A stretch of DNA of 64,000 bases from Segatella baroniae DSM 16972 = JCM 13447 (lineage in GTDB: Bacteria > Bacteroidota > Bacteroidia > Bacteroidales > Bacteroidaceae), in assembly GCF_000426585.1 (NCBI RefSeq), contig NZ_AUFQ01000001.1, positions 248,001 through 312,000 of the forward strand, read 5' to 3'. The notes under the pieces were generated by a model, which was given only the letters and a program-made list of their open reading frames with translations, had not been told where the DNA came from and ran no database searches. The stretch's first letter is position 1. Each line of letters begins with the position of its first letter. Below, piece after piece: positions 9,480-54,323 of this stretch. A program made the translations under genes and the position numbers.

Positions 9480-9483
9480 CGTA

Positions 9484-14717: not shown

Positions 14718-14725
14718 TAACTTTG
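14718..14725 (+). promoter_or_regulatory. -7 element TAACTTTG upstream of the SpoU methyltransferase
   Basis: Fits TAnnTTTG and lies about 60 bp before the chosen start codon. No TTTG is seen 19-20 bp upstream. The rest of 14544-14784 holds nothing else I recognise. Confidence 0.5.
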
Positions 14726-14787
14726 TAACATCAAACAAGAAACGGCCCACTGCGCGTTTGCAATCTGCCTTTCAAAAGCTCCCAATG

Positions 14788-15579
14788 ATGATAAGCAAAG
14801 CTAAGATCAAGTATATCAAATCACTCGAACAAAAGAAGTTCAGACGTCAATTTGGCTGCTTTGTCGCTGAAGGGCCCAAAATCGTAGGCGAGTTGCTGCA
14901 TACGATGCTTCCCCGGCTCATCGTTGCAGAATCCTCATGGATGGAATCCTACTATGAAAAAAGCCTGAAAGCGGTTGCACCCACCACCGTTTCTTCGCCA
15001 GAGCTACTGGAAGTCTCCCACGAAGAATTGCGCAAACTCAGTTTTCTCCAACATCCCCAGGAAGTGCTGGCGGTCTTTTCCATCCCCACACGCTCAGAAC
15101 AAGAAGCCATCGGACAAGCACGCCAAGGCCTGACGCTGGCTCTCGATGGCGTCCAAGACCCCGGAAACCTCGGAACCATTCTAAGGATTGCCGACTGGTT
15201 CGGCATACAAACCATTTTTTGCAGCCCCTCGACCGCCGACATCTACAGTCCCAAAGCCGTACAGGCGACCATGGGCAGTATCGCCAGAGTGCAGACCTTC
15301 TACATGGATTTGCCCGCCTTGTTCGAGAATCTGCCGTCCTCCATCCCGATATACGGCACCTTTCTGGATGGCCATGACATATATGAAACAACGCTTTCGG
15401 ACAACGGAATCATCATCATGGGCAATGAGGGCAACGGCATTTCGGACGAAGTCGCCGGCTTTGTGAGCCACCGTCTGCTGATACCAAACTATCCGCCAGG
15501 GAACATCACCGCAGAGAGCTTGAATGTAGCGGTCGCCACGGCACTCACCTGCGCGGAGTTCCGCCGGCGTCGCAAGTAA
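14788..15579 (+). CDS. TrmH/SpoU family RNA 2'-O-methyltransferase
   Basis: A 263-residue protein starting at the second of two adjacent ATGs (14785, 14788), giving the usual M-I-S-K-A-K-I-K-Y-I-K-S-L start. An N-terminal substrate-binding domain (F-V-A-E-G-P-K-I-V) precedes the SPOUT knot with its three motifs: D-P-G-N-L-G-T-I-L-R, I-I-M-G-N-E-G-N-G-I, and N-I-T-A-E-S-L-N-V-A-V-A. It uses S-adenosylmethionine to methylate a ribose in rRNA or tRNA. The exact target nucleotide cannot be read from the sequence. Stands alone, with a 40-bp gap to the next gene. Confidence 0.9.
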   Translation: MISKAKIKYIKSLEQKKFRRQFGCFVAEGPKIVGELLHTMLPRLIVAESSWMESYYEKSLKAVAPTTVSSPELLEVSHEELRKLSFLQHPQEVLAVFSIPTRSEQEAIGQARQGLTLALDGVQDPGNLGTILRIADWFGIQTIFCSPSTADIYSPKAVQATMGSIARVQTFYMDLPALFENLPSSIPIYGTFLDGHDIYETTLSDNGIIIMGNEGNGISDEVAGFVSHRLLIPNYPPGNITAESLNVAVATALTCAEFRRRRK

Positions 15580-15619
15580 TCATCTCCAATCGTTTATCAC
15601 GCTTCTTTCAGACATAACT

Positions 15620-16495
15620 ATGGACATAGAATTTAAAAACAAGGGAGTCAGAGGATGTATCGGCTCCGCATGCTCCCTGCTGTCTAACAACAAGCGGCTC
15701 ATCTTCCGCAAAACCTACCCTGCCGCATTGCTTGGCGCATTCTTCGCGGCAGTCCTGACCTACCTGCTGTTGCCCAATCCCGACGCCATCCGGCAGGCGG
15801 CAGCCCACCCGTTGCTCCTCCCCGTGCTCACGCTTGCTTGTCTGGCAGCCTTCGCCATGGCCGAAACAGGATTCATAGGAAGGCTATCCGGCTGCATCAC
15901 AGGCGACTACAAACAAGCCTGCAAGCGAAGCTTCATCTTTCCGGTCATCGTCTTTGGGCTTTTCCTCGCAGTCTATGGCGGCAACCAACTGCTCACGCCC
16001 GCCTTCTCACCGCTGGCCAAAAGCCATCCCATTCTCACGCTTTCGCTCTTGGAACTCTTCAAGACGTTGCTGCTCATCCTGCTCATCGTCTTCCTACTCC
16101 CCCTGGTTTACTCCACCACAAAATACCTGTTTGTCCCTGAAGCCCGGGCCTCGCAAGTCTTTACTGCATACTACAAGGAAGGCTTTCATCACAAGGGATT
16201 CATCCTGCTGACGCTCTTTGTGCTGCTCCTCATCATGATACCCACATGGATTGTCCTGCTCATGCCGGGCTTCATCCTGGCTTTGGAACAGGTCACGAAT
16301 GTCCAAGGACAGCTCATCGGCGACCCCGACGGCCTGCCGTCGTGCTTCGGTTGTCTGCTGGTGGCAGTGCTGACCGTTTTGTTTTTCCTCGCGCAATACG
16401 TCTTGTCGCTCTTTTTCTATTCCACCTATTTCATATATCTGTCCATCAAAAGCAGAATCGATGAAAAAGCAAAGAATACTATTTATAGACCGTGA
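15620..16495 (+). CDS. Multi-pass inner-membrane protein, function unknown
   Basis: A 291-residue protein with about six hydrophobic segments: near residues 34-50, 65-82, 107-122, 145-165, 190-215 and 245-270. The N terminus (M-D-I-E-F-K-N-K-G) is polar and probably cytoplasmic, and the tail [10 protein letters not shown] is basic. I recognise no catalytic motif. The hisB start at 16461 lies inside its last 12 codons, so the two genes are translationally coupled. This coupling need not mean a shared function. Confidence 0.72.
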
Positions 16496-39342: not shown

Positions 39343-40623
39343 TCAATCCCGATATGCGCCCTTTGTCGCTTCACTGACCGACAGGCTCTGGAACACGATG
39401 TCGTAGCCGCCGTTCCGCCCGTCGCGCTCATAGAGGAAGGCGAGGCGGCCGTCGTCCATCCTGACCATCGTGGAATAGCACGACGAACGGTCGGTCAGAC
39501 GAAGGCCCTTCCGCCATCCGTGCTTCCAGTTTTGCGTGTCGGACATGCTTTTCCCGACAGGTACTTCCTTGTAGAAGAAACCCACGCTGTCGCGTCTGGC
39601 ACTGAGCGGCACCGACTGCAAGGCCAGCCACACACGCTTGCCGGTAGCTGCCTTCCTGGCCCGAAGGATGAGAATGCCTCCGTTGCAAGCGTTCACCTGC
39701 CGTGCCGTCATATTGTCGGGCATGACCTCCTGGCCCCACTGTCCAGTCGCCTCGCGCGCGTTCCTATATTTATATATATTATATTTGCGACCACCCATAA
39801 GCTCCCTACAGCTGAGCAGTACGTCGCCATTGGGCAGTTCCTCCACCTTCGACTCGTCCTGCGCCGTCGACGGCACCTGGGCTGCACCACCCAAGACCTG
39901 CCATGAGCGGCCGAAATCGTCGGAATAGAGAACGTATGTGCCAATGCGGTCGCGCCCGTTCTGCCGCAGCGGGTGGGCTATGTAGAGACGATAGTATTTC
40001 CCCACCTTGACATAGCGGCTCTGCATGATGCGCCCCGACGTCAGGAATATGCCGTCGGCTTCTCCGCTTCCAGGCAGTTTTCCGTCATACAGTCCATGAA
40101 TCATCTCCGTCAGGTCGGTGCCGTCGTCCCACGTCTTGCCGCCATCCATGCTGCGGAAGAATACGGCATGCTGCGGATCACGGCGCGTGGCCCGCTGATA
40201 ACCCACATTGCCAGCCACGCAATGCAGCAACACCTCATCCGACGTGCGGTCGGCCACCAGACTGGGGTCGCCATAGGCGATGCGGCGCCGTTCGGTGGCA
40301 TGTTCGTCGCCTCGGGCCACACACACCGAATCCGACCATGTGCGTCCGTGGTCATTGCTCGTTCGCATCACCACATTAACCTGAAACAGACCTTCATCGC
40401 TGCTCCAGCCCACATCCATCTTGCTGATGCGATAGTCGCATGCGGCCAACAACGTTCCACGCCGGGTCTGCGCAATGGCGGGAATGCGGTAGGGCACAGG
40501 ACTGTCGGCATTGTCAAAGACGACCACTTCTTTTGCGGACAGTCTCTGGCCCGAAGCACCGAGAGGCTGCAACACGCCCAGCCCCGCTACGAATAACATA
40601 GAAAAGATTAATTTACAATTCAT
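39343..40623 (-). CDS. Secreted exo-alpha-sialidase, GH33-type
   Basis: A 426-residue protein with a signal peptide (cleavage near G-A-S-G/Q, about 25). Y-R-I-P-A (45-49) holds the first arginine of the catalytic triad. Three Asp-boxes follow: S-N-D-H-G-R-T-W (89-96), S-M-D-G-G-K-T-W (158-165) and S-D-D-F-G-R-S-W (234-241). The D-E-S-K-V-E-E-L-P-N-G segment (256-266) and a late S-S-C-Y-S-T-M-V (Tyr nucleophile region) complete the active site. It releases terminal sialic acid from host glycans. No nan transport or catabolism genes are in the window. Confidence 0.92.
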   Translation of the reverse strand: MNCKLIFSMLFVAGLGVLQPLGASGQRLSAKEVVVFDNADSPVPYRIPAIAQTRRGTLLAACDYRISKMDVGWSSDEGLFQVNVVMRTSNDHGRTWSDSVCVARGDEHATERRRIAYGDPSLVADRTSDEVLLHCVAGNVGYQRATRRDPQHAVFFRSMDGGKTWDDGTDLTEMIHGLYDGKLPGSGEADGIFLTSGRIMQSRYVKVGKYYRLYIAHPLRQNGRDRIGTYVLYSDDFGRSWQVLGGAAQVPSTAQDESKVEELPNGDVLLSCRELMGGRKYNIYKYRNAREATGQWGQEVMPDNMTARQVNACNGGILILRARKAATGKRVWLALQSVPLSARRDSVGFFYKEVPVGKSMSDTQNWKHGWRKGLRLTDRSSCYSTMVRMDDGRLAFLYERDGRNGGYDIVFQSLSVSEATKGAYRD

Positions 40624-40744
40624 CTTATTTTGGTTTAAAAGTTAGTATTTCTCTTTTGTTCGCAAGCACAGGATGGCATGCCACCCGTCCTCCCGTCACG
40701 CCACGTCAGCTCCACGTTCCATCGACATCTTCATGCCTTCATCT

Positions 40745-40854
40745 TTCAAATGCCGTGCTTTCAGCCCTCAAAAGCATAGCCGTCAGCCGCTAAAAGCTAC
40801 CCTTTTGCACACCCAAAGCAGTGCTTTCACCTGCTCAAAGCTATGCTTTTTAAG
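40745..40854 (+). repeat. 22-bp repeat array D (5 units)
   Basis: Units at 40745-40766, 40767-40788, 40789-40810, 40811-40832 and 40833-40854. Units 4-5 (AAAGCAGTGCTTT and AAAGCTATGCTTT cores) are near-perfect palindromes. It lies between the divergent sialidase and the polysaccharide operon. Confidence 0.85.
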
Positions 40855-40979
40855 CGAGGTGGTGGCCCTCACACACGCAACAACAACATAACACATTGAT
40901 TACCAGTCACTTATTACCCCCCCTATCAACCTTTAAACAGGCTGACACTGCAAAGATAATCAATTTTGTGGCACTTTTA

Positions 40980-41011
40980 CTTGTTGCTTAACGATTATTT
41001 TCCTATCTTTG
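40980..41011 (+). promoter_or_regulatory. Promoter of the polysaccharide operon
   Basis: TATCTTTG at 41004-41011 matches the -7 consensus. CTTG at 40980-40983 with a 20-bp spacer is a one-mismatch -33 element. TGCAAAGATA at 40949-40958 is the exact inverse of TATCTTTGCA at 41004-41013, so a -7-like element also faces the sialidase. Confidence 0.65.
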
Positions 41012-41240
41012 CACAAGGGTGGACGGGAGGTCTATAGAAGGAACAAAATCTCTTGCACAATCGGTTCTCGCCGACTCGTGCCCCCGCACAGAAATCAAGT
41101 TAGAAAATGACACATCAATCAATGCATACTGCGGCTGCGAAAGATGCGATCATTGCCATTGGGCGCACTGCGATATCGGGAATAAGTCGTCACGACTGAT
41201 TATCGATTTACCCCAGTTTTCTCCATAAGACAAAGGCATT
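41012..41240 (+). other. Long 5' leader of the UpxY-led operon
   Basis: About 230 nt between the expected transcription start and upxY. It contains a small hairpin AGTCG/CGACT (41185-41197). UpxY-type proteins act on such leaders to stop premature termination, so this is the expected cis site. No convincing gene. Confidence 0.5.
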
Positions 41241-41795
41241 ATGACTTTTTCCAGCACAGAAACGCACTGGTTTCTCATCTCTCCCAACTATCGGCGAGAG
41301 CTGAAAATCAAGCAGCACCTTGAATCGAAAGGGCTGAAATGCTTTGTCCCCATGCAACAGACACTGCGCGTCATCGCCGGCGAAAGGCGTCTGGTGGAAG
41401 TGCCCGTCATCTCCAACTACCTGTTTGTCAAATCCAACTACGAGTGCCTGAAGGCCGAAAAGCAGACACTTAAGGCCATCGGCATGCCCTTTAAGTTTCG
41501 CATGGACACCACAGACCGAAGCCGCCCCGTCGTCATCGCCGACAAGTTGATGGACAATTTCATCAAGGTGTGTGAAAGCCGGTTCGTGAAATACCTTGGA
41601 TGCGACAAGCAAGAGAACATCAAGAAAGGCGATTTCGTCGAAATCATGTCGGGGCCCTTCGCCGGCATACAAGGCTACTACGCCCGCCCGTTCAAGGACA
41701 AATGCGTCGTGGTGCTCATCGAAAACGTTGCGGCAGCCTGCACAACCTACATTCCACCGTCCGCCCTGCGGCTGGTGGATGGCGCGAAGACGTAG
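41241..41795 (+). CDS. UpxY-type transcription antiterminator (NusG family)
   Basis: A 184-residue NusG paralogue. The N-terminal NGN domain begins H-W-F-L-I-S-P-N-Y-R-R-E-L-K and includes V-P-V-I-S-N-Y-L-F-V-K. The C-terminal KOW region reads K-K-G-D-F-V-E-I-M-S-G-P-F-A-G-I-Q-G-Y. Proteins of this kind open Bacteroides capsule operons and allow RNA polymerase through the long leader and operon. Position as first gene after a 230-nt leader fits that role. The paired UpxZ inhibitor usual in Bacteroides fragilis capsule loci is not found here. Confidence 0.9.
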   Translation: MTFSSTETHWFLISPNYRRELKIKQHLESKGLKCFVPMQQTLRVIAGERRLVEVPVISNYLFVKSNYECLKAEKQTLKAIGMPFKFRMDTTDRSRPVVIADKLMDNFIKVCESRFVKYLGCDKQENIKKGDFVEIMSGPFAGIQGYYARPFKDKCVVVLIENVAAACTTYIPPSALRLVDGAKT

Positions 41796-41827
41796 AAACA
41801 AACTCATGCTCGAACCTGCATTGCACA

Positions 41828-43507
41828 ATGAAAGGAATAGAAAACACCACCACCACTAATTTTGGTGACATCATAGGAAACAACAGAAAATATGTCGTTC
41901 CACTCTTCCAAAGGGACTACTCTTGGGAAGAAGAGCAGTGGGACGATTTATGGCAGGACATCATGGCCATGACAGAAGACCGGAGCGACCACTATATGGG
42001 CTATCTGGTACTCCAGTCATCCGAGTCCATTCCTGGCAAATACAAGATTATAGATGGGCAACAGAGGTTTACGACTATAACCCTTATTGTCCTCGCCATC
42101 ATCAAAGCCATCAAGGCCTTGGGGGAAAGAGGAGTTCATCCCAAGGACAACCAACTCAGATACAGCACTTTGATGCAGACCTATATCGGCCGGCAAGACC
42201 CTGTGAGTCTGGAATATGACAACATCCTGGAATTGAACAAGAACGACAATCCATATTATAAGGACTACATTGTCAAATTGGGCGATCTACGCATCCGGGG
42301 ACTCATAGCCTCTCAGAAACTTCTCAAAAATTGCTTTGAATGGTTTGAAAATAAAGTAAACGCCCTCAAACTGAAAGATGAAGAGTACGCAGAGTTGATT
42401 GTCAACATCGTCAACAACCTTTATTTTACGGTCATCACCGTCAATGACGAAATGAACGCGTTCCGTGTCTTTGAAACGCTCAATGCGCGCGGTGTGCAGT
42501 TGTCCTCTGCCGATTTGCTGAAAAACTATCTTTTTTCACTTGTTGATGACGGCGGATCAGGAGTTCGATTGGCCAGTTTGGAACATAAATGGAACCAGCT
42601 GATTGACAATGTCAAATCAGAGAAGTTGCCCGATTTCATCCGATATTTCTGGAATACACGCAATAAAAACATACGGTCGGCCGAACTTTTCAAGGCCGTG
42701 AGGAAACAGATATCAGACGCCTCACAGGTTTTCCGCTTCGTTGACGACATGATGGCCTACAGTGATATCTACATGGCTTTGAAGGATCCTCATGACGCAT
42801 TGTGGAATCATGACAGGGAAGTCACCGGCAATATTGAACTGCTGAATCTCTTCGGACTCCGTCAGCCCTACTCTTTGCTGATGGTTGCCTACAAGCAGCA
42901 GCCATTCGACTTGTTCAAGAGGATACTGAAGAGTATCATCATTGTCAGTTTCCGATATAACGTCATTTGCAGCAAGAATCCCAACGATATAGAGAAGGTA
43001 TTCAACGATTTGGCTTTAGCTATCAGCAAGGGCTCACAACCAGACTTGTCCCTGCTCAACAAGATTTATATATCCGACAACGAGTTTGAAAATTCCTTTG
43101 CCATCAAAAGCTTTTCCGCAACCTCACGGAACACCAAGGTGGTCAGATATATTCTCGGCAAAATAGAAAGTCAAGCTGCCCGCTCGTCCATGCTTGACAT
43201 TCATGATGACGAAAACTCCATAGAACATATCCTGCCTCAGAATCCCGACTGCCAATGGAATTTTGATGAATACAAGATCGACCAGCTTGTCAATCGGCTC
43301 GGCAACCTTTGTCTGCTGAAGAAGTCTGCCAACAAGTCGTTAGGCAATGCTGACTATGAGACCAAGAAAACGATGTATGCACATGCCAACTATCAAACTA
43401 CGCAAAGCATTCCTGAACATTATAATGAATGGACGGAATCGAGCATCAACAGCAGGCAGTTGAGTATGGCCAAGAAAGCGACGGCCATCTGGAGACTGAA
43501 TTTCTGA
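41828..43507 (+). CDS. DUF262 and DUF1524 (GmrSD-like) protein, candidate anti-phage nuclease
   Basis: A 559-residue protein. The start at 41828 is chosen because the extension to 41600 overlaps upxY in another frame. The N-terminal DUF262 part has P-L-F-Q-R-D-Y-S-W (25-33) and I-D-G-Q-Q-R-F-T-T (75-83), the NTP-binding DGQQR motif. The C-terminal DUF1524 part has I-E-H-I-L-P-Q-N-P (His467) and L-G-N-L-C-L-L-K-K, a His-Me/HNH-type nuclease signature. This single-chain layout resembles type IV modification-dependent restriction enzymes (GmrSD, SspE-like). It lies 32 bp after upxY in the polysaccharide transcript, an unexpected place. Defence is inference. Confidence 0.88.
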   Translation: MKGIENTTTTNFGDIIGNNRKYVVPLFQRDYSWEEEQWDDLWQDIMAMTEDRSDHYMGYLVLQSSESIPGKYKIIDGQQRFTTITLIVLAIIKAIKALGERGVHPKDNQLRYSTLMQTYIGRQDPVSLEYDNILELNKNDNPYYKDYIVKLGDLRIRGLIASQKLLKNCFEWFENKVNALKLKDEEYAELIVNIVNNLYFTVITVNDEMNAFRVFETLNARGVQLSSADLLKNYLFSLVDDGGSGVRLASLEHKWNQLIDNVKSEKLPDFIRYFWNTRNKNIRSAELFKAVRKQISDASQVFRFVDDMMAYSDIYMALKDPHDALWNHDREVTGNIELLNLFGLRQPYSLLMVAYKQQPFDLFKRILKSIIIVSFRYNVICSKNPNDIEKVFNDLALAISKGSQPDLSLLNKIYISDNEFENSFAIKSFSATSRNTKVVRYILGKIESQAARSSMLDIHDDENSIEHILPQNPDCQWNFDEYKIDQLVNRLGNLCLLKKSANKSLGNADYETKKTMYAHANYQTTQSIPEHYNEWTESSINSRQLSMAKKATAIWRLNF

Positions 43508-43565
43508 CCAACACCATTTCGGCATAGTATCAAGACATAAATAACATAATCAAGACACAGGAAAC

Positions 43566-45494
43566 ATGAATATAGTCAAGAAAGTCTGCAACTGGTATTT
43601 CTCCAAAGGAGCGCTTCCCTATTGGGGCATTCTTTTCCTGGACTGCTCCGCAGTGTTCTTTTCAGGCCTGACGGTCTACTACTTCCGACACGGCGGCATG
43701 GGACTGGCCCAGGACTTCTGGCAAGTGACGAACGGCCTGCTGCTCAGCCTCGTGCTCTATGTGATGGCCTTCTTCGTCTTCCACACGTTCCGTGGCGTGA
43801 TGCGCTACGCATCGTTTGTAGACCTGCATGGTGTGGTCTACTCCACCGCCACGGCCGGAGCCGCGGTCTGCCTGCTCCATCAGGTCGAAATCCGGTTGGG
43901 GCTCACACCATACATCATCATGCCGCGTCTCGAAAGCGCCATCCTCATCTTCATCATTGCCACCATGATGATGTGGGCGTTGCGCATTCTCGTCAGAACT
44001 CTGCACGACCTTTACCGCGGTGCCGACGACATTCAAAAGGTATTCGTTTACGGTTGCATGCAAGGCGGCATAGCTCTTGCCAAAAGCATACGCGAAAATA
44101 CTACCTCCAAATACAGGCTGGGTGGCTTCGTTTCGAGCGACAAGTCGCTCAGCGGAAACTGGCTCTTGGGCGTTCAAATCTATTACGACGACGACAACCT
44201 CGTGAGTCTCATGCAGAAGAAGCGGGCCAAGGCCATCTTCGTGTCGCCCTTTGTCGTGGAACATTTCACAAGGCGCACGGCACTCATCGACGAACTTATC
44301 AATGCCGACATCAAGATATTCATGATGTCGGACGCCGAAGAATGGGATGGCAAATCCGACCTTTCCCATCACCAATTGCGCGAGGTTGAAATCGAAGACC
44401 TCCTTCCTCGCGAGAAAATAGAGGTCGACTTGGTTGCCATCGGCTCGATGCTCCGAGACAAGAGGATTCTCATTACGGGCGCGGCCGGCAGCATTGGCTC
44501 GGAAATGGTGCGCCAGATAGCCAAATTCTCACCGGCAGAATTCATTCTGGTAGACCAGGCGGAAACCCCCATGCACGACGTGCGGCGGTATATGGCGCGC
44601 AACTATCCCTCACTGAAGGCCTGGACAATCGTAGGCTCCATCACGAACAAAGACCAGATGGAAGAGATTTTCCGTCACCACCATCCCGAATACGTGTTCC
44701 ACGCGGCAGCCTACAAGCACGTGCCCATGATGGAAGACAACCCTGCGATGGCCGTGCAGAACAACATCTACGGCACACGCGTCATCGCCGACCTGGCCGT
44801 CAAGTATGGAACGAAGAAGTTTGTGATGATTTCCACCGACAAGGCCGTGAATCCCACAAACGTCATGGGCTGTTCCAAACGCATTTGCGAAATCTATTGC
44901 CAGTCGCTCAACAAGAAACTCGAAGAGGAAGCAAAAGTTACCGGCAAGCCCGCCACCCAGTTTATCACGACCCGCTTCGGCAACGTGCTGGGTTCCAATG
45001 GTTCCGTGATACCCATTTTCAAGGAACAAATCAAGAAGGGCGGCCCCGTCATGGTGACACATCCCGACATCATCCGCTATTTCATGCTGATTCCCGAGGC
45101 CTGTCGTCTGGTGCTGCAAGCGGGCACGATGGGCAAAGGTGGTGAAATATTCGTATTCGACATGGGGGCTCCTGTCAAGATTGTCGATTTGGCAAAGCGC
45201 ATGATCAGACTGTCCGGAGCACAAAATATAGAAATCAAGTTTTCAGGATTGCGCGATGGCGAAAAACTGTATGAGGAAGTGCTCAACGACAAGGAGGTGA
45301 CCAAGGGCACCACCAATCCCAAGATCATGGTGGCCGCCGTCCGCGAATATCCCTACGACCTTGCAGTCCGCAACGAAAAAGAGCTCTACGACCTCTCCTT
45401 CACCTTCGACGACATGCAGATTGTCAAGAAAATGAAAGCCATCGTTCCGGAATACAAGAGCCAGCACAGCAAGTATCAGGAACTGGATGAATAA
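43566..45494 (+). CDS. Membrane-bound nucleoside-diphosphate-sugar epimerase/dehydratase, CapD/WbpM type
   Basis: A 642-residue protein. Four transmembrane helices lie in about 1-150 and an N-terminal Rossmann-like domain at about 150-280. The SDR catalytic domain starts I-L-I-T-G-A-A-G-S-I-G-S-E (about 299). H-A-A-A-Y-K-H-V-P-M-M-E and S-T-D-K-A-V-N-P-T-N-V-M-G-C-S-K-R are the UDP-GlcNAc 4,6-dehydratase signatures; Met/Asp/Lys replaces the classical Ser/Tyr/Lys arrangement, as in WbpM/FlaA1 long forms. It should make a UDP-4-keto-6-deoxy-hexose for surface polysaccharide. Third gene of the operon, 58 bp after the DUF262 gene. Confidence 0.93.
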   Translation: MNIVKKVCNWYFSKGALPYWGILFLDCSAVFFSGLTVYYFRHGGMGLAQDFWQVTNGLLLSLVLYVMAFFVFHTFRGVMRYASFVDLHGVVYSTATAGAAVCLLHQVEIRLGLTPYIIMPRLESAILIFIIATMMMWALRILVRTLHDLYRGADDIQKVFVYGCMQGGIALAKSIRENTTSKYRLGGFVSSDKSLSGNWLLGVQIYYDDDNLVSLMQKKRAKAIFVSPFVVEHFTRRTALIDELINADIKIFMMSDAEEWDGKSDLSHHQLREVEIEDLLPREKIEVDLVAIGSMLRDKRILITGAAGSIGSEMVRQIAKFSPAEFILVDQAETPMHDVRRYMARNYPSLKAWTIVGSITNKDQMEEIFRHHHPEYVFHAAAYKHVPMMEDNPAMAVQNNIYGTRVIADLAVKYGTKKFVMISTDKAVNPTNVMGCSKRICEIYCQSLNKKLEEEAKVTGKPATQFITTRFGNVLGSNGSVIPIFKEQIKKGGPVMVTHPDIIRYFMLIPEACRLVLQAGTMGKGGEIFVFDMGAPVKIVDLAKRMIRLSGAQNIEIKFSGLRDGEKLYEEVLNDKEVTKGTTNPKIMVAAVREYPYDLAVRNEKELYDLSFTFDDMQIVKKMKAIVPEYKSQHSKYQELDE

Positions 45495-45546
45495 AAGAAG
45501 GAAAAAGGGGAAATACTTATACTTGTGATTTTCATAACCAACATAT

Positions 45547-45759
45547 ATGACACAACTTGACAAAGACGCCCATGACACCCAGATGGCCGACATGAAGTCG
45601 TTTGCGGAAGAGATGCCAGCAATCGGAATCTTCTGGTATGACCCCACAGACAACACTTTCTTTGGTGTTTGCAAATCCGAGCTCACACCCAAGATGGTAG
45701 AAGAAGCTGCCAATAAAGGGTTGCTCATAAAAGAAATAAAACATAATTACTATGCGTGA
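45547..45759 (+). CDS. Small conserved protein, function unknown
   Basis: A 70-residue acidic protein. It has [19 protein letters not shown], then [14 protein letters not shown]. This looks like a small alpha/beta fold, a strand pair followed by a helix. No signal peptide or membrane segment. Its stop overlaps the next start by 8 bp, so it is translated as part of the operon and coupled to the sugar dehydrogenase. I do not recognise a named family. Such proteins may bind or regulate partners, but that is only a guess. Confidence 0.75.
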
Positions 45760-47065
45760 ATTTAAAGACATTAAGGTTGCAGTAGCCGGTACAGGCTATG
45801 TAGGACTTAGTATCGCTACACTCCTAAGCCAACACCATCACGTGACAGCCGTCGATGTAATTCCCGAGAAAGTAGAGAAACTCAACAACAAGATTTCCAC
45901 GATTCAAGACGAGTATATTGAAAAGTTCCTTGTGGAAAAGGAACTGAATCTTACCGCTACTCTCGACGGGGCGACAGCCTATAAGGATGCAGACTTCGTG
46001 GTCATAGCGGCACCAACCAACTATGACCCAAGCAAGAACTACTTCGACACATCCCATGTGGAAGAAGTCATCGACTTGGTGCTTGAAGTGAATCCCGACG
46101 CCGTCATGATCATCAAGAGTACAATCCCCGTGGGATATACACGCAACCTTTACGTGAAGTATGCAGCCAAAGGAATAAGGAAGTTCAATTTGCTTTTCTC
46201 GCCGGAGTTCCTTCGTGAGAGCAAGGCTCTTTACGACAATCTTTATCCCAGCAGAATCATCGTGGGCTATCCCAAGATCATTCCGGGCAAAGACGAGGAA
46301 AACAAAGCTATCCTGCAAGTTACCGACCCCGACAAGATGAAGGAAGCGGCCAAGACTTTTGCGGCATTGCTTCAGGAAGGTGCCATCAAGGAGAATGTTC
46401 CCACCCTCTTCATGGGCATAAAAGAAGCGGAAGCCGTGAAGCTCTTTGCCAACACCTACCTTGCCCTTCGCGTCAGCTACTTCAACGAACTTGACACCTA
46501 CGCGGAGGTAAAAGGGCTTGATACGCAATCCATCATCAACGGCGTAGGGCTCGACCCGCGTATCGGCTCGCATTATAACAACCCGTCATTTGGTTATGGC
46601 GGCTACTGCTTGCCGAAGGACACCAAGCAACTCCTTGCCAACTATGCCGACGTGCCTCAAAACATGATGTCTGCCATCGTCGAAAGCAACCGCACACGCA
46701 AGGACTTCATTGCCGACCAGGTTCTTCATAAGGCAGGCTATTACACCGCCAACAGTTCTTGGGACAAAGCTGCAGAGAAAGAAGTCACGGTTGGAATTTT
46801 CCGTTTGACGATGAAGAGCAACTCCGACAACTTCCGCCAGTCTGCCATCCAGGGAATCATGAAACGCATCAAGGCCAAGGGCGCAAATGTAATCATCTAT
46901 GAGCCGACCCTCGAAGATGGCACATCATTTTTCGGCAGCAAGGTCATCAACAATCTCGAAGAGTTCAAGAAACAGAGCAATGCCATCATAGCCAACAGAT
47001 ATGATGCGGTCTTGGATGACGTCAGAGAGAAAGTTTATACAAGAGATTTATTTCAACGCGACTAA
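45752..47065 (+). CDS. UDP-glucose 6-dehydrogenase-type nucleotide-sugar dehydrogenase
   Basis: A 437-residue protein. NAD-binding [12 protein letters not shown] lies near the N terminus. [11 protein letters not shown] and S-P-E-F-L-R-E-S follow. The catalytic region is [12 protein letters not shown] (Cys about 286). Two-step oxidation of the sugar C6 to a uronic acid, most likely UDP-glucose to UDP-glucuronate. GDP-mannose or UDP-N-acetyl sugars cannot be excluded. The gene overlaps the upstream small gene by 8 bp. Confidence 0.93.
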
Positions 47066-47132
47066 CCATTCCCTATCGATTCACCCGCATACACGCGCTA
47101 TGAGGTCGAGAGAAAAATAGCCCAAATAAACT

Positions 47133-48245
47133 ATGAGTAAACAGAACATAGCCCTCATCACGGGCATTACGGGCCAGGATGGTTCATATCTGGCGGAATT
47201 ATTGTTGGAGAAGGGTTATGATGTACATGGTATCATACGCCGGTCGTCGGTAGACTATCGCGAGCGCATTGCACACCTTGAGGGTAAGCCGCACTTCCAT
47301 TTGCACTATGCTGACATGGGCGACTCCATGAGCATCGTCGGTGTCGTCGGTGAAGTACGCCCGACGGAAATCTACAATCTTGCGGCACAAAGCCATGTGC
47401 AGGTCAGTTTTGATTCGCCGGAATTCACCGCGGATGTAGACGCCGTGGGCGTGTTGCGCATCATCGAGGCCGTTCGCAAGCTCGGACTCACGAACACTTG
47501 CCGCATCTATCAGGCTTCCACCTCCGAACTCTATGGCAAGGTGGAAGAGGTTCCACAAAACGAGGACACGCCATTCCACCCGTTCTCTCCTTATGCCGTG
47601 GCCAAACAATACGGCTTTTGGATAATGAAGGAGTATCGTGACGCATACGGCATGTTCTGCTGCAACGGCATTCTCTTCAACCATGAGAGCGAACGTCGTG
47701 GCGAAACTTTTGTCACCCGCAAGATCACCTTGGCTGCAGCCCGCATCAAACAAGGATTGCAGGAGCGACTCTACTTGGGCAATCTGGATTCATTGCGTGA
47801 CTGGGGCTATGCTAAAGACTACGTGGAGTGCATGTGGCTGATATTGCAGAACAACAAACCGGACGACTTTGTGATTGCGACAGGTGTCCAACACTCCGTC
47901 CGCGAGTTTGCGCAACTCGCTTTCCACTACGTGGGTATAGAACTGAAGTGGGAAGGTAAGGAAGATAAAGAAAGAGGAATCTGCGTATCGGGGCCGGATA
48001 ATCTTGTCGGAAAGACGCTCGTCGAGGTATCACCCGACTTCTACCGCCCCACCGACGTCGTCAATCTTCTGGGCGATCCGGCCAAAGCCAAAGCCAAACT
48101 TGGCTGGAATCCCAACACCACTTCCTTTGAAGAGCTTGTCAAGATCATGGTAGACCACGACATGGCTAAGGTGGCAGCGGAAGGCGCAGCCGCAAAGGTG
48201 CGAACAAACCTGGCCGAATACCTCGAAAAAGGTATCGTCAAGTAA
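47133..48245 (+). CDS. gmd: GDP-mannose 4,6-dehydratase
   Basis: A 370-residue extended [14 protein letters not shown] (11 on) and H-G-I-I-R-R-S-S are Gmd signatures. [12 protein letters not shown], the catalytic Y-A-V-A-K, and [11 protein letters not shown] follow. It converts GDP-mannose to GDP-4-keto-6-deoxymannose, the first step to GDP-fucose. The next gene (fcl) takes the product. 67 bp separate it from the dehydrogenase gene, without a terminator. Confidence 0.97.
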
Positions 48246-48296
48246 CACGCTGGCTATGACTGCATTCAAGACCGCTGCCTAAGAACAAAGCAACCC

Positions 48297-49502
48297 ATGC
48301 TATCTAGAAAATCAAAAATATACATTGCCGGGCACCACGGGCTCGTAGGCTCGGCCATCTGGAACAACCTCAAGGCTCGCGGCTACAACAATCTGGTGGG
48401 GAAAAGCCACAGGGCGCTCGACCTGACCGACCAACAAGCCGTCAAGGCTTTCTTTGATGAAGAGCGGCCCGACGCTGTCGTATTGGCGGCGGCCTTCGTC
48501 GGCGGTATCATGGCAAACTCGTTGTATAGAGCCGACTTCATCATGCAGAACATGAAGATGCAGTGCAACGTCATTGAACAGGCCTACCTGCACGGCGTGA
48601 AGAAACTGCTGTTCTTGGGTTCGACCTGCATCTACCCCAAAAACGCGCCGCAACCGATGAAGGAAGAGGCCCTTCTCACGTCGCCATTGGAGTACACCAA
48701 CGAGGAATATGCCATCGCCAAGATAGCCGGACTGAAGATGTGTGAGAGCTACAACCTGCAATATGGCACGAACTATATCGCAGTCATGCCCACCAATCTC
48801 TATGGTCCCAACGACAATTTCCACCTTGAGAACTCGCACGTTCTGCCGGCGATGATGCGCAAAATCTATCTGGCCAAACTCATTCATGACCTCAACTGGG
48901 AGGCCATCCGCAAGGATATGGACAAGCGTCCCGTGAATCCCACAGACAAACTCCGCGCCATCATTGGCGAAGGGAACGTGGATGGACGGAACCCGGAGGA
49001 GCGGATAGCGCAATGCCTGGCCTTCTATGGCATAGAGGACAACAAGGTGACGCTCTGGGGGGACGGCTCTCCCTTGCGCGAGTTCCTATGGAGTGAGGAT
49101 ATGGCCGACGCATCCGTACACGTGTTGTTGAATGTGGATTTCAAGGATATCATCGGCATTGAGAAATATTCAAGCGTTTTCTATGGCGCCAAGAGTGACG
49201 GGGCTGTCGACCGCAACAACTCCGAAGGCCGTGGGGGAGCCATCCCAAGCCTTGGCGAAATTCGCAACTGCCACATCAATGTGGGCACGGGCAGAGAGCT
49301 GCGCATCAAGGAACTGGCTGAACTTGTCGTGAAGTCGGTCGGCTTCGAGGGCGAACTCTGCTGGGACGACAGCAAGCCCAACGGCACACCACGCAAGTTG
49401 ATCGATGTCGACAAGCTGCATTCACTCGGATGGACACACAAAGTGGAAATCGAGGAGGGCGTAGAACGATTGTATCAATGGTACCGCGGCACCATTGATT
49501 GA
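48297..49502 (+). CDS. fcl: GDP-L-fucose synthase
   Basis: A 401-residue SDR. I-A-G-H-H-G-L-V-G-S-A-I (10-21) is the GDP-fucose synthase variant of the NAD(P) loop. F-L-G-S-T-C-I-Y-P holds the catalytic Ser/Cys and Y-A-I-A-K-I-A-G the Tyr and Lys. It is longer than the roughly 310-residue E. coli WcaG: extra segments lie around 195-245 (D-M-D-K-R-P-V-N-P-T-D-K) and 300-330. Together with Gmd it makes GDP-L-fucose for capsule or glycoprotein. It is the last gene of the operon. Confidence 0.95.
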   Translation: MLSRKSKIYIAGHHGLVGSAIWNNLKARGYNNLVGKSHRALDLTDQQAVKAFFDEERPDAVVLAAAFVGGIMANSLYRADFIMQNMKMQCNVIEQAYLHGVKKLLFLGSTCIYPKNAPQPMKEEALLTSPLEYTNEEYAIAKIAGLKMCESYNLQYGTNYIAVMPTNLYGPNDNFHLENSHVLPAMMRKIYLAKLIHDLNWEAIRKDMDKRPVNPTDKLRAIIGEGNVDGRNPEERIAQCLAFYGIEDNKVTLWGDGSPLREFLWSEDMADASVHVLLNVDFKDIIGIEKYSSVFYGAKSDGAVDRNNSEGRGGAIPSLGEIRNCHINVGTGRELRIKELAELVVKSVGFEGELCWDDSKPNGTPRKLIDVDKLHSLGWTHKVEIEEGVERLYQWYRGTID

Positions 49503-49543
49503 ATGCCGACAAGAGGTCGGGGAACGACGGTTTAAAATATACC

Positions 49544-49592
49544 ATCCGGCAAAAGGACAACGCCAATCAAGCTGTTCTTTTGCCGGATTTTT
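49544..49592 (+). terminator. Strong rho-independent terminator of the polysaccharide operon
   Basis: ATCCGGCAAAAG (49544-49555) pairs perfectly with CTTTTGCCGGAT (49577-49588), followed by TTTT. It lies 42 bp after fcl and defines the end of the UpxY-led operon. Confidence 0.93.
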
Positions 49593-49629
49593 GCGTTTAT
49601 GCCCAACCCGTCGGTTCAGTGGAACTTCG

Positions 49630-49856
49630 TCATGGTGCATTGCGCCTACTACTGCACGGCGGTTGCTGGCAGAGTACAAGCGGTTGTATGTACAATACAC
49701 CATGATTATCGCCCAACAATCGCTTTTGGGCAAAAAGACCAAGGCCTTCGGCCTAGATGTCTCTATCACAGGGCTGGCAGGGTAGCTCGCTGCGCTCGCA
49801 CCCCCGCCCTCTAAAAGAACCAACCGCTACGCGGTTGCAGGCACAATGCACCATGA
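49630..49856. repeat. MITE-like element with 17-bp inverted ends, copy of a 172-bp repeat
   Basis: The ends 49630-49646 and 49840-49856 are inverted repeats with one mismatch (core CATGGTGCATTG). The inside (from about 49659) is one unit of a repeat with a 172-bp period that recurs at 50422. It carries hairpins AACCGC/GCGGTT and AAGGCC/GGCCT. Frames inside are conserved between copies only because the DNA is. No transposase and no clear target duplication. Confidence 0.65.
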
Positions 49857-49944
49857 CCATGTCCCCATGAACCATTGGATATAAAGAAATGCCTGTCACA
49901 GACCGATCAGGAAGTGAAGCCAGAGGCTTCATCGCTCAATAACC

Positions 49945-50112
49945 CCTGGTCATCTCTGCAAAGCGGAGTGACCAGGAGATAAAAGACCAAGCGGAAATCG
50001 GCCTTGGAAGGGTCGCCCAAAGACAGCCGTGATGACCGTGGGCGACCCTTCCAGGGTCGACGGATGGATGGCGGTCACACCTCCCCCGGTCATCCTGCGG
50101 CATGACCGGGGG
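49945..50112. other. Cluster of three strong hairpins
   Basis: 49945-49976 has CCTGGTCA paired with TGACCAGG. 50006-50019 with 50039-50052 is a perfect 14-bp stem (GGAAGGGTCGCCCA). 50083-50093 with 50102-50112 is a perfect 11-bp stem (CCCCCGGTCAT). No gene is supported here. They could be transcript-end structures or remnants of dispersed repeats. Confidence 0.7.
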
Positions 50113-50319
50113 TTACGGAGAGGTGAAGCCGCCGGCTTCAACACCCGCAGGAAAGCGTCGGATTCCGCCATGCGAGCCTGCCCGCCCGCCATCAAGGGGC
50201 AGCCGGCGGCAACCATGACCATCATATCGACCTTGCAGCTCGTGCCTCCGCATGCTTCAAAAACCAACGGGAATTCCGACAGTTCACCCTTTACCCCCGA
50301 CAACATCCACCACAAACGT

Positions 50320-50665
50320 AAAAAAGACCAAGACCCTCGGCCTAGTTTCTTTTCGCCGCACACCAGGCAGGGTAGCTCGCTGCGCTCGCACCCCTGCCCT
50401 CTAAAAAGACCAACCGCCAAGGCGGTTGCAGGCGGAGTGCAAGCGGTTGTATGTACAATACATCATGATTATCGCCCAACAATCGCTTTTTGGGAAAAAG
50501 ACCAAGGCCTTCAGCCTAGATCTCTCTATCACAGGGCTGGCAGGGTAGCTCGCTGCGCTCGCAACGCTGCCCTCTAAAAGGACCAACCGCTACGCGGTTG
50601 CTGGCAGAATACAAGCGGTTGTATGTACAATACACCATGATCATCGCCCAACGATCGATTCGGGA
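50320..50665. repeat. Further copies of the 172-bp repeat
   Basis: 50320-50430 matches the second half of the unit seen at 49660-49842. 50422-50593 is a full unit (GCGGTTG to GCGGTTG, 172 bp, the same period as 49659 to 49831). 50594-50665 is the start of another. Identity is high but not perfect. The copies are head to tail and in the same orientation as the first. Confidence 0.75.
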
Positions 50666-50731
50666 TAAAGATTTGCATTTAAAATGCCAATGGGAGATTT
50701 GGCTTTATGCAACAAAGACATTGCCGCCACA

Positions 50732-50841
50732 TTGCAACAAGCCTGCTTTTACACTGCAACAAGCCTGCTTTCTGCCGCTGAAAGCAGTGCTTTCAGCGGC
50801 CAATCGCCATGCTTTTGCAAAGTCAAAAGACTGCTTTTACA
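50732..50841 (+). repeat. 22-bp repeat array E (5 units)
   Basis: Units at 50732-50753, 50754-50775, 50776-50797, 50798-50819 and 50820-50841. Units 1 and 2 are both the CAACAAGCCTGCTTT type. Units 2-5 align in order with units 1-4 of array B. It lies between convergent fcl and plsC. Confidence 0.87.
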
Positions 50842-50850
50842 AGTTTTGAA

Positions 50851-50894
50851 TGTGAAATGAGGAATGAGAAGTGTGAAATGAGGAATGTGAAATG
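50851..50894. repeat. Short imperfect tandem repeat
   Basis: TGTGAAATGAGGAATG occurs at 50851-50866 and 50872-50887, with a partial third copy (TGTGAAATG) at 50886-50894. Non-coding, directly after array E. 50895-50992 shows nothing I recognise. Confidence 0.7.
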
Positions 50895-50992
50895 CCCTTT
50901 TCCCAGCAAGAAGACGCTGTTTTTGGAGGACAAACGACCAGCGGAGCAAGCCAATCTGCCCAGGCATTCCCACTCGTCCGATGTCTTTCCGT

Positions 50993-51751
50993 TCACTGAT
51001 CGGGGTTCTCCACGAAGCCCTGGTACTCCGGCACAAGACCATCCATCACCGCCCGATAGGCCTGCGCCATGGTTTGCTTCTCAAACTCCACACCTTTTCC
51101 TTGCGGGGGAATCGGCCGATGGATTGTCAGCGTGAGCGGATGCCAGTTCACCCAACGCATGTCGCACGTGCGAGGCATGACATCGAAAGAGCCGTTGATG
51201 GTCAGCGGCACAACCGGCAACTGCAGTTCGTCGGCCAGCATGAAGGCACCGCGACGGAAAAAGCCCATGTGGCCCGTGAACGTCCGCGAACCTTCGGGGA
51301 AGACGACCAACGACATGCCTTCGCGAAGTATCTTGCTGGCGTTGGAATAGGTCTGTCGCACCTTGCTCGGCCCCCGCTTGTCCACAAAGATGTGGTGGGC
51401 GGCGCGGCAGGCAATGCCAATCAGGGGGATGTTGCCCAACTGTCGCTTCATCATCCATTTGAAATTGCGATTCAGATAGCCGTATATCAGAAAAATGTCG
51501 AACGCCCCCTGATGGTTGGACACAAACACATAGGACTGCCCGGCCTGCAAATGCTCACGCCCCTCCACCTTCACGGGCAGAAGGAGCACCTTGGTGATGA
51601 GCCAAGCCCAACACTTGCCGGGATAATATCCCCAGAAATGGCCATTGCCGACCAGACTGCCGACAACCGTCACAAGCGAAGTGAGTACCGAAGCCAGCAA
51701 GATGACGGGCAGGCAAACCAAAAGCTGATAGACACGATAAAGGAATTTCAT
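50993..51751 (-). CDS. plsC: 1-acyl-sn-glycerol-3-phosphate acyltransferase
   Basis: A 252-residue membrane-associated acyltransferase. An N-terminal hydrophobic segment spans about 7-35. S-N-H-Q-G-A-F-D carries the catalytic H-x4-D, and F-P-E-G-S-R-T is the substrate motif, followed by R-R-G-A-F-M-L-A. It adds the second acyl chain in phosphatidic acid synthesis. Its start overlaps the upstream metallophosphoesterase stop by 4 bp, so it is the last gene of a leftward operon. Confidence 0.93.
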   Translation of the reverse strand: MKFLYRVYQLLVCLPVILLASVLTSLVTVVGSLVGNGHFWGYYPGKCWAWLITKVLLLPVKVEGREHLQAGQSYVFVSNHQGAFDIFLIYGYLNRNFKWMMKRQLGNIPLIGIACRAAHHIFVDKRGPSKVRQTYSNASKILREGMSLVVFPEGSRTFTGHMGFFRRGAFMLADELQLPVVPLTINGSFDVMPRTCDMRWVNWHPLTLTIHRPIPPQGKGVEFEKQTMAQAYRAVMDGLVPEYQGFVENPDQ

Positions 51752-52926
51752 TGGGAAGAGTTGCGATGAAGGGTGAATACTACGATTTCGGGAATGGCAC
51801 CGATGCGAATGGGTACGACACCGCCCAGCCCGGCCGACACATAAAGATAACGTCCCGCCTTTTCAAACAAGCCGTAATCCTCCTTGTAGGTCAGCATGGT
51901 CGGGCGAAGGCCCAATATCTTGATTTGCCCGGCATGCGTATGGCCGCTCAAGGTGAGCCGGGCATTGGTGTGGGGCAGTATCGTGCGGTCCCATGACGAA
52001 GGGTCGTGCTGGAGCATGATGACAAACGAGCGACGGTCGACGCCCGCCATGGCCCGAGGAAGGTTGATTTTGTGGGGGAAAGGAGCCTCGCCGTCATGAT
52101 GCGTGCCGACGATGACAATGCTGTCGTTGTCGCGACGGACAACGGCGCTGCTGTCCGTGAGCAACGTCCAGCCAAACTGACGTTGGAGTTCTCGTGTGAA
52201 CAGCTCGTTCTGATGCTTCACCTCCTCTTTTTCCCCCTTTTGATAAAAGCTGTAGTCATGGTTGCCCAGCACGGAATAAACGCCGTCCTTGGCTTTCAAC
52301 GATGACAGTTCGCGCCTGAAAGGCAACAGTTCCTGGGGATTCACGTTCTGCAAATCGCCGGTAAAGACTATCATATCAGCACATTGCGCATTGATACTGT
52401 CGATGTCGCGCTTCAATATCTTATAGCGCCATCCTCGATAAGTGCCCACATGAAAGTCGGAAAACTGCGTGATTCGAAAGCCGTCGAAAGCCTTGGGCAA
52501 GTCGTCCAGATATAAATGAACATGGCGCACCGACAGCTTGGCTTCGCCAAACGTGAAACCATAAAAGAAGAAACCGACACTCACGAGCGACACGAACGGG
52601 CCGACAATGTTTCCCCAATTGCGATGGCTGCGGGTCATGATGCACCACAACCAACCCGCGCACGAGCAGACAACAAACAGAAATACGGGCAGGACAACCC
52701 ACGTCAACAGGATGAAGAACAATTCAATCCACAGGTTGTTGTGCGGCACAAAATCCTTGATGCAGGCCATCCCGACGCAATAGCCTGTCACGACGAGTGC
52801 GGGGAGCCAGCACAGCACGCGCTTCCACCACCGCAGACGCAACCGTCGAACCAGGAAGTGGCGGTCGATATAGACCTGGGGCAACAAAATCGCCAACAGT
52901 AAAGGTATGATGATGCGAGCTACCAT
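51748..52926 (-). CDS. Membrane-anchored calcineurin-like metallophosphoesterase
   Basis: A 392-residue protein. About four hydrophobic helices lie in residues 1-125. The catalytic domain has F-S-D-F-H-V-G, F-T-G-D-L-Q-N, L-G-N-H-D-Y and L-S-G-H-T-H-A-G-Q: all metal ligands of the YaeI/YkuE type are present. Family members hydrolyse phosphodiesters or UDP-diacylglucosamine-like lipids. The substrate here is unknown, though coupling to plsC hints at lipid metabolism. Confidence 0.9.
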   Translation of the reverse strand: MVARIIIPLLLAILLPQVYIDRHFLVRRLRLRWWKRVLCWLPALVVTGYCVGMACIKDFVPHNNLWIELFFILLTWVVLPVFLFVVCSCAGWLWCIMTRSHRNWGNIVGPFVSLVSVGFFFYGFTFGEAKLSVRHVHLYLDDLPKAFDGFRITQFSDFHVGTYRGWRYKILKRDIDSINAQCADMIVFTGDLQNVNPQELLPFRRELSSLKAKDGVYSVLGNHDYSFYQKGEKEEVKHQNELFTRELQRQFGWTLLTDSSAVVRRDNDSIVIVGTHHDGEAPFPHKINLPRAMAGVDRRSFVIMLQHDPSSWDRTILPHTNARLTLSGHTHAGQIKILGLRPTMLTYKEDYGLFEKAGRYLYVSAGLGGVVPIRIGAIPEIVVFTLHRNSSQ

Positions 52927-52973
52927 AAAGTTGTTTTACGCATTGAAGAAGCAGACTGAACGGCAGGGACGGC

Positions 52974-54299
52974 TTATCCGAAGACCAACTGTTTGCCGGC
53001 ATGACCACCTTCTATCCATCCCCGGCTGTAGACCAGCACGCCGTTGCAAAGCGTATGCGCAACTTCCCAGTGGAAAGTCTCTCCTTCAAGCGGGCTCCAT
53101 CCGCACTTGCTGAGGATTCCGTCCTTCCTCAAAATCCAAGGATTCGTGGGCCGGACGATTGCCAAGTCGGCCCAATAGCCCTCACGGACAAAGCCGCGCT
53201 CATGAATCTTGAACAAGTCGGCCGGATGATGGGACATCAACGCCACGAGACGCTCCAACGAAAGGACGCCCTGACTGACGAGTTCCAGCATGGACAACAA
53301 GGAGAATTGCACCATCGGCATGCCCGAAAGCGCCTTGGCCGCCCCACCCTGCTTCTCTTCCCACAGATGGGGGGCATGGTCGGTGGCGACGGTCAGAATC
53401 TTTCCGTTTGTCAATCCTTGCCGCAGACTGTCGCGGTCTGCCCGCGTCTTGACTGCAGGATTGCACTTGATGAGCGCCTTCTTGGTGAGATAATCCGCAT
53501 CGGAGAACAACAAATGGGGAACACAAGCCTCCAACGTAACATGACCACCGACCAATTCCAGTTCACGGGCCGTCGTGACGTGAGCCACATGCAAACGGGT
53601 GCCGAAGCGGCGGGCCAACTCCACAGCCAAAGTCGTCGAAGCCAGGCAAGCCTCGGCCGACCTGATTTGCGGATGCAACGTGATGTCGGGGTCTTCACCG
53701 TGCACCTCCTTGGCCTGCCGCATGTTGCGGTTGACCATGGCCGTATCCTCACAATGCGTCATCAACGGAAGCCGCAAGTCGTGACAAGCCGCAAAAATCT
53801 TTTCAAGCGTTTCGCGCCTGTCAACCAGCATGTTGCCCGTGCTTGCCCCCATAAAGAGCTTGATGCCGGGAATCATCTGTCGCGGCACGGCGGCGAAGAC
53901 GTCCATGTTCTGATTGGTGGCCCCCAGGAAAAAGCCATAGTTGACGACGCTCTTCTCTCCGGCCAACCGATACTTTGCCACCAATGCCTCCGGGGTTGTT
54001 GTCTGCGGCACGGTGTTCGGCATTTCCAAATAGGACGTAACGCCACCGGCGGCCGCCGCCTGGCTCTCCGAGCGGATGTCGGCCTTGGCCGTCAAGCCCG
54101 GCTCGCGGAAATGTACATGTTCGTCAATGACACCGGGCAGAACGAAACACCCCGTGATGTCCATCTCTTGCTGACAGGCACCACGGGGCATCGTTCCTCG
54201 GTTCGAAATCTCTGCTATGCGACCATTCTCTATGAGGAGATCGCCTTGAAAAGAGCGGCCTTCATTGACGATGACACCACCTTTTATCAATAATCTCAT
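52974..54299 (-). CDS. pyrC: Dihydroorotase
   Basis: A 441-residue class I-type amidohydrolase. D-E-H-V-H-F-R-E-P-G holds the H-x-H metal site and substrate Arg. M-T-H-C-E-D and H-V-A-H-V-T-T supply further ligands, and V-A-T-D-H-A-P-H the catalytic Asp. It closes carbamoyl aspartate to dihydroorotate in pyrimidine synthesis. It lies 47 bp before the metallophosphoesterase gene and 24 bp after the DUF4369 gene in a leftward operon. Confidence 0.95.
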   Translation of the reverse strand: MRLLIKGGVIVNEGRSFQGDLLIENGRIAEISNRGTMPRGACQQEMDITGCFVLPGVIDEHVHFREPGLTAKADIRSESQAAAAGGVTSYLEMPNTVPQTTTPEALVAKYRLAGEKSVVNYGFFLGATNQNMDVFAAVPRQMIPGIKLFMGASTGNMLVDRRETLEKIFAACHDLRLPLMTHCEDTAMVNRNMRQAKEVHGEDPDITLHPQIRSAEACLASTTLAVELARRFGTRLHVAHVTTARELELVGGHVTLEACVPHLLFSDADYLTKKALIKCNPAVKTRADRDSLRQGLTNGKILTVATDHAPHLWEEKQGGAAKALSGMPMVQFSLLSMLELVSQGVLSLERLVALMSHHPADLFKIHERGFVREGYWADLAIVRPTNPWILRKDGILSKCGWSPLEGETFHWEVAHTLCNGVLVYSRGWIEGGHAGKQLVFG

Positions 54300-54323
54300 G
54301 GGAACGGAAGTATTTTTGTTTTG

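Follow-up and report, generated by a model that had tools for sequence, protein, structure and literature searches.

A putative anti-phage nuclease gene of the HEC-06 class in the variable middle of an UpxY-led capsule locus of Segatella baroniae

Introduction

Type IV restriction enzymes of the GmrSD kind, such as Eco94GmrSD and BrxU, have a DUF262 and a DUF1524 domain in one chain and, in the strict sense of the term, cut DNA carrying modified cytosine when NTP is present. DndI of the IscS-DndBCDE-DndI system (PDB 9JFL) carries DGQQR and HNH motifs and, according to an excerpt from its description, is a nickase whose ATPase activity is tuned by phosphorothioate (PT) via residue Y25 (PMC11662687). 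HEC-06 is a candidate class in PADLOC, and the part of a 2026 paper that we drew on says that it has demonstrated antiviral activity, citing the preprint of Payne et al. 2024 (PMC12988326). On the side of the cell surface, an extract from PMC12118408 lists UpxY and UpxZ among the genes commonly found early in Bacteroides capsule loci. The section of PMC5729914 that was available reports a single chromosomal transfer in Bacteroides fragilis that carried restriction-modification genes along with a polysaccharide locus that was replaced. We found no description of antitermination of a defence gene among the titles and openings of abstracts that we searched, a scope outside which preprints and most subscription papers fell.

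We analysed a stretch of 64,000 nucleotides from Segatella baroniae (the window). A preliminary description had placed a GmrSD-like gene at 41828-43507 inside an UpxY-controlled polysaccharide operon and proposed that one antiterminated transcript would switch capsule and nuclease together. The gene belongs to a known type of defence gene; its location, in the exchangeable central part of a capsule locus, is unusual. The reading that we favour, as rather likely, is that it encodes a horizontally acquired anti-phage enzyme of the HEC-06 class that is a passenger of the capsule locus and is read with capsule-precursor genes from a promoter at about 41004.

Domains, motifs and predicted structure of the nuclease

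41828..43507, plus strand: DUF262-DUF1524 (GmrSD_N + GmrSD_C) protein, PADLOC class HEC-06 (Pfam, PADLOC, alignment and predicted structure)

The open reading frame is intact and encodes 559 amino acids. Both Pfam domains score over their curated cut-offs, GmrSD_N (PF03235) at 8.2e-39 over residues 13-236 and GmrSD_C (PF07510) at 3.1e-28 over residues 415-549, and the presence of DUF262 and DUF1524 in a single chain places the protein in the GmrSD superfamily. The family motifs, including the DGQQR and HxxP/GNL motifs that had been pointed out, were located, with FQRDYSW at 27, IIDGQQR at 74 and FETLN at 215 in the N-terminal part and IEHILPQ at 465, LGNLCLL at 491, NADYETKK at 507 and WTESSINSR at 535 in the C-terminal part. 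The GmrS features comprise (I/V)(I/V)DGQQR at 74, a QR pair at 28-29 and FxxxN at 215-219, and the E/D-H-N-N nuclease residues of GmrD are present as E466, H467, N493 and N502. Judging from motif and spacing, N493 and N502 are presumably the two asparagines of the published GmrD motif. As printed in the portion of PMC4619093 that we compared, the GmrS and GmrD motifs match those of the protein apart from small differences: after DGQQR the protein has F where the published motif has L, its second GmrD motif carries an additional residue ahead of the final N, its third has Y in place of F, and its weak fourth has M in place of L. DGQQR and the four nuclease residues are invariant in 46/46 aligned sequences, our own included. 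At the N-terminus, relatives begin with MKGI(E/Q)N (3/6 aligned) or MIGIQD (2/6).

This conservation bears on whether the gene has a role in defence at all. It could be an inactive remnant or a nuclease for DNA maintenance, for which nothing direct speaks; the host genome has two further GmrSD_N genes, so the copy at 41828-43507 may be redundant. The intact frame, the retained catalytic motifs and the invariance of the four nuclease residues all argue against such a role, and we regard it as very improbable.

The best PADLOC model for the protein was HEC-06 (PDLC04154, 1.5e-206, 685 bits), which matched nearly the full length (residues 6-558), followed by 'Orf5' (PDLC02687, 4.5e-186) on the same protein, a high second score that counts against the HEC-06 reading. 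What sets the gene apart from others of the HEC-06 class is its place as second gene in an UpxY-led sugar-nucleotide operon, whereas most close relatives are found in other settings. An AlphaFold model (mean pLDDT 89.4, pTM 0.73) was closest to DndI in a structure comparison (Z 27.4, rmsd 4.2, 531 residues), with the C-terminal part of SspE at Z 24.1. BrxU, which is of GmrSD type, reached Z 12.6 with an rmsd of 18.8, although differences in domain arrangement can lower such a Z. Foldseek likewise ranked DndI first and placed BrxU (4.5e-5) under full-length SspE chains. In a profile search of solved chains, DndI (8.8e-41) and SspE (1.4e-13) were recovered and BrxU was absent among matches to 0.001. 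The two domains and the recognisable published motifs tie the protein to the GmrSD type IV enzymes, but the BrxU structure is further off. Because DndI and SspE rather than BrxU are the nearest solved relatives, the term modification-dependent restriction enzyme, used in the preliminary description, holds as a family label and not as a result.

DndI is the best match among solved chains in both structure and sequence, and the nuclease is probably DndI-like in its mechanics, as the model suggests, with nicking gated by a nucleotide. It differs from DndI at the PT-sensing site. In the profile alignment, the residue opposite Y25 is F27, so the PT-sensing tyrosine of the N-terminal patch of DndI and SspE is absent; phenylalanine occupies this position in at least 90% of the 46-sequence alignment. 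A search of the host genome (completeness 99.21) for dndC alone (TIGR03183) gave no match. We propose that the nuclease works on its own as an anti-phage enzyme of the HEC-06 class, in which the N-terminal DUF262 domain would bind and hydrolyse nucleotides through DGQQR and sense some state of the DNA, and the C-terminal His-Me finger domain would nick or cut invading DNA.

Gene order around the nuclease

41241..41795, plus strand: upxY, NusG-paralogue antiterminator (NF033644 2.7e-37; Pfam NusG 1.6e-11)
43566..45494, plus strand: capD-like nucleotide-sugar dehydratase, presumably of the membrane (Polysacc_synt_2, PF02719, 3.6e-115)
45752..47065, plus strand: gene of the UDP-glucose/GDP-mannose dehydrogenase family, here called ugd (PF03721, PF00984, PF03720)
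47133..48245, plus strand: gmd, GDP-mannose 4,6-dehydratase (PF16363 5.1e-140; 72% DNA identity to related species G012)
48297..49502, plus strand: fcl-like gene, GDP-fucose synthase (PF01370 2.3e-59; 83% DNA identity to G012), an epimerase gene called fcl here

The product of the gene upstream of the nuclease matches the UpxY model NF033644 at 128.3 bits, over the cut-off of 100. The gaps of 32 bp after upxY and 58 bp before the capD-like gene that had been reported were both reproduced, and the genes are co-directional from upxY through the fcl-like gene, which ends at 49502. By Pfam, the four genes 3' of the nuclease encode nucleotide-sugar enzymes. When the list of open reading frames was inspected by eye, no flippase, polymerase or glycosyltransferase frame was seen in 43566-49502. 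Since this segment holds only sugar-nucleotide genes, it does not amount to a full capsule locus. With this correction, the UpxY-led co-directional run of the preliminary description stands. The arrangement resembles UpxY-led capsule loci of Bacteroides in having UpxY first and co-directional sugar genes next, and differs from them in lacking a clear invertible promoter and in having a nuclease in second place.

Two further features flank the run. A BNR/sialidase-like gene at 39343-40623 is divergent from upxY, an arrangement found in G012 too. Between fcl and the next gene, 49641-50660 contains a 196-nt repeat (two copies, 92%) together with 52- and 85-nt repeats in three copies.

Promoter and leader

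41004..41011, plus strand: -7 box TATCTTTG of Bacteroidales type, candidate promoter of the operon (exact match to pattern TANNTTTG, which we take to be the Bacteroidales consensus)
41119..41159, plus strand: conserved block in the untranslated leader, possibly a site for recruitment or pausing with UpxY (identity to G012)

Within 39788-54310, exact plus-strand -7 boxes occur only at 41004-41011 and at 41857-41864, the latter inside the nuclease frame. The only one able to serve the nuclease is thus the box at 41004, which stands 237 bases 5' of the upxY start and would give a leader of about 220 nt. Its counterpart in G012 is TACCTTTG. A terminator scan, which found 14 sites in the whole stretch compared with 9.4 (sd 2.6) in shuffles, gave no plus-strand site in either the upxY-nuclease or the nuclease-capD gap, in line with the preliminary description. 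The single exact box and the gaps without terminators agree with one transcript without showing it. From this arrangement, the nuclease is probably co-transcribed with the capsule-precursor genes, and joint control of the two is plausible. Transcription would start at about 41004 and reach the nuclease as the first gene after upxY, and UpxY, by letting polymerase past the leader, would cause the nuclease to be expressed with the capsule-precursor genes. Were the transcript shared, any switch of the capsule would carry a DNA-cutting defence along with it, and the outcome of phage-resistance tests that alter the capsule could be mistaken for a receptor effect.

An alternative is that the nuclease is an independent unit inserted between upxY and capD and driven by its own weak or induced promoter inside upxY, with UpxY irrelevant to it. 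Close relatives lie mostly outside such operons and would presumably need signals of their own, and sigma-70-type matches do occur in the region, though near chance (10 versus 8.5). Against this, the plus strand has no exact TAnnTTTG in 41012-41856 (exact boxes only), the gap measures 32 bp, and the scan gave no terminator in it. We consider this alternative unlikely.

The leader block is identical to G012 (L087 7208) at 39/41 nt, compared with 20/40 nt just before it; the upxY DNA is identical at 366/527 ungapped positions. Its 23-nt core occurs without mismatch in 2/200 genomes of the genus, our own and G012, and with 3 mismatches in three others. The idea that the block is a genus-wide UpxY site was rejected, as only the window and G012 carry it among 66 upstream regions. 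A structured leader RNA was also rejected, as the leader folds no better than shuffles (z 0.96) and has no match in Rfam.

The promoter lies among inverted repeats. A perfect 10-bp pair (40949-40958 and 41004-41013) consists of two divergent -7 boxes about 45 bp apart, as it does in G012. Imperfect pairs of 14 nt (86%, 40681-40694 and 41017-41030) and 18 nt (78%, 40728-40745 and 41227-41244) flank the promoter. In 40600-41260 we counted 5 pairs of 14 nt with at least 12 matches compared with 0.67 in shuffles, a count that is inflated because overlapping frames of a 28-nt repeat at 40770-40850 were counted several times. The spacer of G012 is shorter and the 14-nt pair is not apparent there by eye. 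An invertible promoter is not supported by these repeats, and 40681-41030 is a possible but unproven invertible segment.

The same locus in a related species

The locus of G012 shares both ends with the window. At one end are the divergent sialidase gene (76% DNA identity), the promoter boxes, the leader block and upxY (73% protein identity), and at the other are gmd and fcl, which start about 12 and 14 kb beyond the start of upxY. Between these ends, the window has the nuclease gene, capD and the dehydrogenase gene. In G012, a flippase-like gene and a series of glycosyltransferase-like genes were recognised there by eye, and no DUF262-type gene was seen in the part of this middle that was listed. 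A search of G012 with the nuclease protein gave no match at 1e-20, and its two listed GmrSD_N genes are about 65 kb away from upxY. The two loci thus agree in their regulatory head and in their tail but not in the middle, which is where the nuclease lies. Keeping of the gene at this place in related genomes, which had been suggested as a check, was thus not observed in G012, where the promoter, leader block, upxY and gmd-fcl are all present. The pair offers a natural comparison of loci that have promoter, leader block and antiterminator in common, one with and one without the nuclease.

The GC content of the nuclease gene (0.448) is low compared with upxY (0.539) and capD (0.532), which would fit an imported gene, though the value for ugd (0.484) is low as well. 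We suggest that horizontal transfer brought the nuclease gene into the exchangeable middle part of a capsule locus, the ends of which (promoter, leader block and upxY; gmd-fcl) would be fixed. It would then be linked to the capsule genes mostly as a passenger at a hot spot of exchange and not as part of a conserved two-layer defence module.

Relatives of the nuclease and their links to NusG paralogues

Among 200 genomes of the genus, an orthologue was found in 2, our own and G108 (68% identity), and five more relatives were at 24-26%. Matches at 1e-60 or better occurred in 6 of 399 genomes of the family, our own included. No close relative was found in viral contigs (7 relatives, 24-39% identity), plasmids (10 records, all <42%) or phages (2 records, 28%). 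By eye, close relatives stand in scattered contexts with neighbours of housekeeping type.

We compared 23 loci of close relatives with 40 windows for polysaccharide or NusG markers nearby. At least one marker was present in 5/23 relatives and 3/40 windows (Fisher p 0.11), leaving 18/23 with none; two or more in 4/23 and 1/40 (p 0.055); and three or more in 3/23 and 0/40 (p 0.045). Some of the markers were taken from two of the tested loci (L091 and L099), so the test favours a link. In addition, some of the 23 loci have short flanks and they come from several genera, and the 40 windows come from one genus and were chosen by hand at round-number positions, not at random. The claim that nuclease and capsule would be switched together calls for a switch or for linkage that is conserved. 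Given the rarity of the orthologue (2/200), the markerless relatives and the absence of the gene from G012, it is not supported in that form, and a general or conserved coupling of the two is not shown.

Because some close relatives do lie behind NusG paralogues or in runs of nucleotide-sugar genes, the linkage may exceed the incidental. In 80 named loci with flanks of up to 10 kb, a NusG-like gene was present in three (L089, L103 and L104), in each case upstream of the nuclease gene and in its orientation, and none of the 40 comparison windows had a NusG-like match. In L089, from G108, the nuclease starts 86 bp (to the aligned ATG) behind a gene whose 675-aa product scores over cut-off for both NusG and KOW; downstream of the nuclease the genes are convergent and, by eye, amidase-like and HU-type, not capsule genes. 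In L103 the nuclease follows a NusG-like gene and a GHMP kinase gene, and in L104 it follows NusG and homologues of wza, wzc, ugd and rmlA, co-directionally in both. The NusG-like protein of L103 falls narrowly under the Pfam KOW cut-off and has no Pfam NusG match. As a separate observation, the same DUF3791 and DUF3990 pair is found near the nuclease at L103 9071-9993 and, by eye, at L104 12011-12819, once before it and once after.

To the extent that these cases are not chance, they bear on a second alternative, in which the coupling itself is selected: surface operons led by NusG paralogues would time and again take in DUF262-DUF1524 nucleases, with the effect that the cells which change their surface are also those that attack DNA inside the cell. 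Besides the three loci, this is supported by a sample of 200 genomes of the genus (150 listed PF03235 places and 191 UpxY places merged from two lists, each list running to at most 150), in which 6 GmrSD_N genes in 4 genomes, our own included, were listed within 10 kb downstream of UpxY on the same strand compared with 0.29 expected, and none was listed within 10 kb upstream or on the opposite strand. The expectation is uniform and ignores clustering, fragmented assemblies lose pairs, and genes from the same locus are not independent; without our own genome, the sample shrinks to 5 genes in 3 genomes. In a second sample of 100 family genomes outside the first (138 + 145 listed places), the number was 0 compared with 0.26 expected. 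The borderline NusG-like match of L103, the many relatives without a marker and the lack of the gene in G012 also count against selected coupling, which we hold to be doubtful. We continue to prefer a passenger gene read with its neighbours. We conclude that operons led by NusG paralogues now and then acquire DUF262-DUF1524 genes, and do so in the direction of the run, perhaps because no other orientation is tolerated or expressed.

Defence-type genes around UpxY loci

Defence-type matches near UpxY were surveyed at 60 loci, one per genome, taken by random draw from the 104 genomes in which an eligible place existed. From the genes of 200-2500 aa on either strand, random subsets were scanned with PADLOC: 118+124 downstream genes out of about 330, and 115+125 upstream genes out of about 319. 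Among the matches listed, models with at least one match numbered 69 and 66 downstream and 15 and 38 upstream; these are not gene counts, as one gene matches many models. The notion that UpxY operons are defence operons in general was not supported, as defence-type matches lie on both sides of the loci, which also weighs against selected coupling.

A narrower proposal is that NusG-paralogue operons in Prevotella-type bacteria repeatedly take up DUF262-DUF1524 nucleases, sometimes without a visible capsule gene. If true, processive antitermination would be a general way to turn on DNA attack in cells that are changing their surface, and a nickase that could harm its own cell would stay off in the others. 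The case for such recurrence of DNA-attack genes comes from a handful of loci, L200 being the most striking, and we judge the proposal quite improbable. At L200 (G130:C10:20000-36518), UpxY heads a co-directional run (5324-16373) in which no capsule genes were seen; the genes after UpxY are, by Pfam, DnaB-like, HSP70, AbiEii and RNase T-type exonuclease genes and two GmrSD_N genes. At L201-L203 (G195:C2:180000-229000), two UpxY genes each have a copy of one and the same unknown gene behind them, with DUF262/AAA pairs, flippase-like genes and, by eye alone, a QatABCD-like set further downstream.
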